The notes beneath the pieces are model-generated. The model saw only the letters and a program-made list of their open reading frames with translations, had not been told where the DNA came from and made no database searches. A stretch of DNA of 64,000 bases from Selenomonadales bacterium (lineage in GTDB: Bacteria > Bacillota > UBA994). Shown here piece after piece: positions 6,001 through 6,177 of this stretch; the stretch's first letter is position 1, and each line of letters starts with the position of its first letter. The DNA is taken from assembly GCA_018335585.1 (NCBI GenBank), contig JAGXRZ010000023.1, positions 1-64,000 of the forward strand. The letters run 5' to 3'. A program made the position numbers and the translations under genes.

Positions 6001-6088
6001 CCTAAGTGCGAAGTGCAAAGTGCGACGTGCGAAGTGCAAAGTACTAGTGAAGCAAAAAGCTCCGTCCCTTTTGCTTCCTTTTGCTTCG
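6001..6088 (-). repeat. composite 3'-end repeat, copy A (hairpin plus AAGTGC heptamers)
   Basis: On the - strand it begins one base after the CCA of tRNA-Ser(TGA) with GAAGCAAAAGG AAGCAAAAGGG. It continues through a GAAGCAAAA/TTTTGCTTC stem-loop with a T5 run and then six 7-bp units of the AAGTGCG/AAGTGCA type (6004-6045 on the + strand). Copy B, in the opposite chromosomal orientation, is at 63932-64000. The T-run after the stem could terminate transcription. Confidence 0.8.
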
Positions 6089-6177
6089 TGGCGGAGAGAG
6101 AGGGATTCGAACCCCCGGCCCCTTGCGGGGTCACTAGTTTTCAAGACTAGCGCCATAAACCACTCGGCCATCTCTCC
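6089..6177 (-). tRNA. tRNA-Ser (anticodon TGA)
   Basis: An 89-base class II tRNA: acceptor GGAGAGA/TCTCTCC, anticodon loop CTTGAAA, variable arm CCCCGCAAGGGG, T-loop GGTTCGAATCC, encoded CCA. It reads UCA (and UCN by wobble). It is the first tRNA downstream of serS. Confidence 0.95.

Follow-up and report, generated by a model that had tools for sequence, protein, structure and literature searches.

A probable REP-like hairpin repeat at gene 3' ends of a Selenomonadales bacterium, with a RAYT-type transposase gene between inverted copies

Within a 64,000-nt stretch of Selenomonadales DNA (the window; positions 1 to 64,000 of contig JAGXRZ010000023.1), a small hairpin lies directly behind a tRNA gene and again behind an ABC-transporter gene, raising the question of what this element is, how it spread and why it stands at gene ends. 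An earlier note had described the two copies as composites of a hairpin and heptamers, set exactly at gene 3' ends in one orientation, and had proposed a mobile terminator. When read on the strand of the upstream gene, both copies show the same order, GAAGCAAAAGG(G), GAAGCAAAAGGGACGGAGCTTTTTGCTTC, AC and GCACTT heptamers (Table 1). Copy A does start one base, a C at 6088, beyond tRNA-Ser(TGA), and copy B does overlap the stop codon of the transporter ATPase gene, whose TGA shares its GA with a truncated GAAGCAAAAGG. The two form an inverted pair that is 97% complementary over 36 nt. The 29-nt hairpin folds with an 11-bp stem and the loop GACGGAG at -12.5 kcal/mol as RNA (z -3.4) and at -6.7 as DNA, with a DNA value of -10.2 for a variant carrying C in place of one T (the C-variant); Rfam, searched at the gathering threshold, has no family at copy A or copy B. 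The window also holds a T-box leader (Rfam RF00230, 102.8 bits) at 7659-7850 on the - strand, upstream of the seryl-tRNA synthetase gene at 6215-7504, and two-copy direct repeats of 60-72 nt, 82-96% identical, at 12767-13142 between the genes at 12659 and 13158.

Table 1. Positions in the window of the two element copies, their companions and their upstream genes.
Feature	Position	Strand	Details
tRNA-Ser(TGA), upstream gene of copy A	6089..6177	-	encoded CCA, ending at 6089
Truncated 5'-anchored copy GAAGCAAAAG	6078..6087	-	directly upstream of copy A
Copy A, full element GAAGCAAAAGG-GACGGAG-CTTTTTGCTTC + AC	6047..6077	-	hairpin 6077-6049, AC 6048-6047; 11-bp stem including one G.T pair, 7-nt loop
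GCACTT-type heptamer array	6004..6042	-	3' side of copy A
Oligopeptide ABC-transporter ATPase (ABC_tran + oligo_HPY), upstream gene of copy B	63004..63933	+
Truncated copy GAAGCAAAAGG	63932..63942	+	before copy B; first 2 bases are GA of the upstream TGA stop
Copy B, full element + AC	63943..63973	+	hairpin 63943-63971, AC 63972-63973
GCACTT-type heptamer array (CACTTTG-type units)	63975..64000	+	3' of copy B, extends beyond window end

A search of the genome (2.34 Mb, 69 contigs) with a 28-mer of the element, allowing up to 3 mismatches, revealed 76 places (44 exact; 32 on the + and 44 on the - strand) against 0 for the reversed control, so that the two copies of the window are real and beyond chance. 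Regions surrounding the copies were then taken for closer analysis. The repeat is a 31-nt hairpin, GAAGCAAAAGGGACGGAGC(T/C)TTTTGCTTCAC, with 73 distinct copies after removal of near-duplicate contigs (C60/C64 and C47/C23). The near-duplicates present in the assembly, C60 against C64:500-2400, C47 against C23 and C33 against C52, seem to be versions of the same loci from different strains. Conservation extends from the G before AAGC through [A/G][C/T], mostly AC, after CTTC, and the flanks of most copies are unrelated and non-homologous. With an 18-mer, exact matches were obtained from each of the four genomes of the genus (72, 29, 37 and 14) and from 0 of 37 more distant genomes. The T-variant dominates in the window's genome and the C-variant, which has T4 only, in the sister species (63 of 78 copies); the dominance of the T-variant here suggests a recent burst of one subtype.

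The placement of these copies was assessed against gene calls from a home-made codon-based gene finder, together with tRNA calls, using a 3'-end range of -70 to +40 nt. Gene 3' ends of the same orientation alone account for 37 of the 73 distinct copies, against 6 that are found solely at an end of the opposite orientation (p=1.6e-6); a further 6 stand where two genes converge, and the other 24 are not at any gene 3' end. Under a strict limit of 40 nt the figures are 36 co-oriented copies versus 6 (p=2.8e-6), and 16% of random intergenic positions fall within that limit when orientation is ignored. The same bias is seen in the sister species, where 37 of 78 copies are co-oriented, 29 of them only so, versus 7 (p=5e-6). 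Thus the claim that the element sits at gene 3' ends in one orientation is borne out statistically, the copies being random in neither orientation nor distance. Twenty-seven distinct copies start -1 to 15 nt from a gene end, at least 4 follow tRNA genes, the element contributes the GA of the TGA stop in 16 genes, and in ten proteins it encodes a tail such as EAKGTELFAS; copies in 5' regions also exist, for example at C1:50052/50161 and C42:963. As stop-codon supply, intragenic copies and proximity to gene 3' ends have already been described for GTAG REPs (PMC3733652), gene-end placement as such is not new, and it is the strong orientation preference that needs explanation. Three possible sources of this preference were considered. 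A replication-strand bias is unsupported, as 8 of 10 elements beside minority-strand genes still follow the gene, albeit in small numbers; the T5 run was rejected, as the sister copies are mostly C-variants; and stop-codon capture was rejected, as both ends of the palindrome begin GAAGC.

A hairpin with a T run at gene ends resembles an intrinsic (Rho-independent) terminator, and on the terminator proposal the hairpin and its T5 would end transcription of the upstream gene and be retained for doing so. The one-orientation bias to gene 3' ends speaks for this proposal, as do the greater stability of the T-variant RNA hairpin in the favoured orientation (-12.5 versus -7.5 kcal/mol), the 28 co-oriented copies that are T-variants and the small number of canonical terminators in the spacers of this genome. 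However, intrinsic terminators consist of a GC-rich stem followed directly by a U-tract, whereas the T run here does not come after the hairpin but belongs to its 3' stem arm, with GCTTCAC rather than a U-tract next to it. Scans for canonical terminators did not call the hairpin, and such terminators are about equally frequent at genes with the element (6 of 36) and without it (35 of 250). Some copies, including those at C53:77602 and C51:38948, come after a stop codon but before the terminator of that gene, and the bias holds in the sister species despite their mostly C-variant copies. A terminator function is therefore improbable, and of the mobile terminator that had been proposed only the mobility stands.

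Mobility is indicated by the 73 distinct copies in non-homologous surroundings, by empty sites in sister species and by a transposase gene framed by inverted copies. The hairpin is absent from the spacer behind tRNA-Ser(TGA) in all three sister species, and the sites at C10:11364, C12:19734, C41:84595, C46:21598, C52:8182, C29:27156 and C53:98457 are empty in every sister in which the gene was found. The sites at C64:3646, C40:101939 and C63:48815, by contrast, carry the element in two to four of the species in the genus; insertions of the element are thus polymorphic within it. The empty sites revealed no target-site rule, duplication or exact junction, because the sister spacers are too diverged.

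A PF01797 search of the genome identified five Y1 places. The gene that we term RAYT1 is present as two strain versions of one locus, C60:2300-3082 and C64:1309-2091, and inverted copies of the element frame it on both sides in each; its orthologs in the three sister species (G001-G003) are likewise framed. RAYT1 is a long Y1 protein of 260 aa with a C-terminal extension, an HUH motif NHVH and a Y-x-x-NNP motif, and residues H57, H59, Y116, N120 and P121 are invariant among ten homologs. The only relative of solved structure found by sequence is TnpA-REP (4er8, E=1e-7), and the AlphaFold model of RAYT1 (pLDDT 86.8) has as its best PDB fold match the same entry, in which TnpA-REP is bound to a REP hairpin (E=3e-7). 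Against the NCBIfam REP-transposase family NF047646, with a cut-off of 80 bits, RAYT1 scores 65 bits and a second protein of this genome, RAYT2, 85 bits. Residues 183-259 of RAYT1 are all-helical in the model, with a weak, below cut-off Pfam HTH match (E=0.012). The RAYT2 gene is flanked by its own inverted hairpin, GAACAAAAGGGACGGTTCTTC, while the remaining Y1 gene, at C46:94197, has no obvious GTAG or GGGACGG partner pair.

RAYT1 best resembles the transposases of TIRtrons (TIRYT; Di Nocera 2013, PMC3733652), which correspond to TnpA-Y1 subclass 2.1 (Quentin 2018, PMC6006769). The likeness extends to a long Y1 protein with a C-terminal extension, NHVH, Y-[IV]-x-x-NP and FQ or YQ at the W position, and to inverted repeats on both sides, some of which are self-complementary and recur within the genome. 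For TIRs the published motif is GGGGWSAS, whereas here it is (A/G)GGGACGG, and only occasional GGGGACAG variants fit the former. A scan for homologs that covered 84,980 species genomes yielded 80 named ones, nearly all from Clostridia and relatives. Across relatives, many of the transposase genes carry a hairpin of their own. Quentin 2018 reported REP-like sequences to be absent near subclass 2.1 genes (PMC6006769), whereas we found a GGGACRG core in forward orientation in the left flank of 66 of the 80 homologs and inverted in the right flank of 56, where about 2 would be expected on each side. The consensus of the core reads GGGACGGTTC(T/C)T. Left and right flanks form an inverted repeat with a score of at least 13 in 58 of 80 homologs versus 13% for mismatched flanks, and the stem arms, while varying by family, remain self-complementary, with at least 8 pairs in 46 of 63 cases versus 30% with mixed arms. 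The pairing is specific: in the cases tested, a hairpin proved abundant in no genome or genus other than that of the transposase it flanks. For the G024 hairpin, 28 copies were counted in its own genome and elsewhere only five hybrids with 2-3 mismatches, these in the window's genus, and the 20 copies of the G008 hairpin, mostly close inverted pairs, are confined to G008. A core that is conserved, a stem that varies but stays paired and a gene framed by inverted copies are together what should be expected of a hairpin recognized by a transposase.

We consider the element, with a probability of about 0.87, to be a REP-like non-autonomous palindromic repeat that is spread in trans by a RAYT-type single-strand (HUH/Y1) transposase, its autonomous form being the transposase gene between two inverted copies in C60 and C64. 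Under this mechanism the GGGACGG-bearing strand would fold as single-stranded DNA, and the transposase would read the conserved loop core together with the stem, cut at the foot of the hairpin, with C|A at the 3' edge as the candidate site, and insert the element elsewhere. Of the two single strands of its REP, TnpA-REP binds just one, and it cleaves at CT or CA (PMC8266576). By analogy, the GGGACGG strand is likely the substrate, because it tolerates its G.T pair while the complement has an A.C mismatch, and because its 3' edge reads C|A; the putative single-stranded substrate of RAYT1 would be GAAGCAAAAGGGACGGAGCYTTTTGCTTCAC. Copies would then persist mainly just behind genes and in one orientation through insertion of low harm, through transcription that exposes suitable single-stranded DNA, or both. 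Insertion behind genes would do little harm because all six frames of the element are open and its arms supply a TGA stop or a short tail.

Transcription of a copy would place a hairpin in the 3' UTR, 0-15 nt from the stop codon, rather than a classical terminator, and the element could accordingly be viewed as a hairpin selected for its action on mRNA decay or translation, as with E. coli REPs near stops, with mobility accounting for its origin only. The 27 distinct copies that begin -1 to 15 nt from a gene end, and the sites occupied in two to four species, fit such selection, as does the reduction of translation by E. coli REPs less than 16 nt from a stop codon (cited in PMC12306157). According to the same source, REPs of E. 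coli stall ribosomes when they lie at most 15 nt from a stop codon, and by this analogy a role in translation or decay is plausible here. As a full account, selection of this kind is nevertheless on the unlikely side: sister species lack the element at many sites, at least 4 copies stand behind tRNA genes and 24 of 73 lie away from gene 3' ends. Since a 3'-UTR role would explain retention and not spread, it may coexist with spread by the transposase.

The heptamers of the earlier note's composite proved to be an occasional companion. GCACTT arrays abut the 3' side of about 12% of copies (9 of 75 flank-distinct copies) and never occur on the 5' side or on the other strand; most copies lack them, so an obligate part of the element was rejected. 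Chance proximity was rejected as well, since the arrays flip with the element where it is reversed relative to genes. The hairpin-heptamer composite is therefore real but occasional, and the heptamers may have been seeded from the element's GCTTCAC end or been co-copied with it, both being possible. Intergenic DNA of this genome itself shows a periodicity of 7 (and 14) nt and none of the others tested: 6% of intergenic 56-mers exceed 60% self-identity at shift 7, whereas for shifts 4-6 and 8-13 the share is no higher than 0.1%, and for coding DNA it is 0.04%. Many unrelated heptamer arrays (CTTGTCC, AGCTCAT, CAAATCA, TTCATGA and others) occur, for example at 4562-4859, 5408-5519, 5830-5865 and 7600-7619 of the window, and spacer content changes completely between sister species. 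A heptamer excess in bacteria is known (PMC4692102), and the variety of arrays here is unusual.

Nested truncated copies accompany 15 of 75 copies (L136, L113 and others), sharing the 5' end, stopping at varied points and lying almost always on the 5' side of the full copy; they may record repeated insertion or copying at one spot. Such 5'-anchored tandem copies, a longer flank common to several loci (a GCACTT array plus AGGGGAAACGGG-type sequence) and a tandem duplication in C25 would also be in keeping with passive duplication, in which recombination or slippage spreads the hairpin and heptamer tract and the transposase gene is an accidental neighbour. This is exceedingly improbable given that flanks are mostly unrelated, that the inverted framing of the gene is kept in four species, and that hairpins are specific to the genome of their own transposase, with the same architecture and other stems across the 80 homologs.

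Among known systems, the element works like REP/REPIN repeats with their RAYT (TnpA-REP) transposases (Nunvar 2010, PMC2817692; Bertels & Rainey 2011, PMC3116915; PMC8266576). Both comprise a short palindrome in tens of extragenic copies and a Y1/HUH gene flanked by two inverted copies, with a hairpin family specific to the transposase, and both lie near gene 3' ends, with repeat ends that can provide a stop codon (PMC3733652). The element falls outside the GTAG REPs, however: classical REPs have a GT(A/G)G foot, whereas base composition reveals no GTAG or GTGG 5' of the hairpin here, and the conserved tag GGGACGG(AG/TTC) lies instead in the apical loop region. The copies are also mostly single elements rather than inverted pairs, and the host is a Clostridia-like member of the Bacillota, whereas qualifying RAYTs were found only in gammaproteobacteria in the 2010 survey of Nunvar (PMC2817692). 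Rickettsia palindromic elements (RPE) and intragenic REPs are similar in being palindromes that are open in reading frames and fused in frame into proteins; in the present case nearly all fusions are C-terminal tails on unrelated genes, and there is a candidate for the transposase. The same genome also carries canonical GTAG-foot REPs, with 71 exact copies, mostly in pairs 2 nt apart, of which inverted dimers (REPINs, GTAG-GGACGTGC..GCACGTCC twice) lie at 5895-5945 and 37429-37480 of the window and one copy adjoins a GGGACGGAGC hairpin at C1:29865. A literature search for GGGACGGTTC repeats, with most subscription papers outside its reach, found no paper.

We tentatively propose, at odds a little short of even, that palindromes with a GGGACGG core form a third, Clostridia-wide REP-like superfamily beside the GTAG and CGTC ones, each family moved by a long Y1 transposase that would read the conserved loop core and a co-evolving stem, with insertion or retention coupled to transcription so that copies come to lie at gene 3' ends in one orientation. 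What moves REP elements, with their domesticated-looking transposases, and why the repeats are kept at gene ends has long been a puzzle. The present system places this puzzle outside the Proteobacteria, with transposase and hairpin matched one to one in many lineages and the putative recognition tag in the loop, not the foot. The cognate hairpins found at most homologs contradict the published absence of REP partners for this class of transposase, and the matched pairs make specificity directly testable. Finally, the orientation bias offers a handle on whether single-strand transposons find their targets via transcription.
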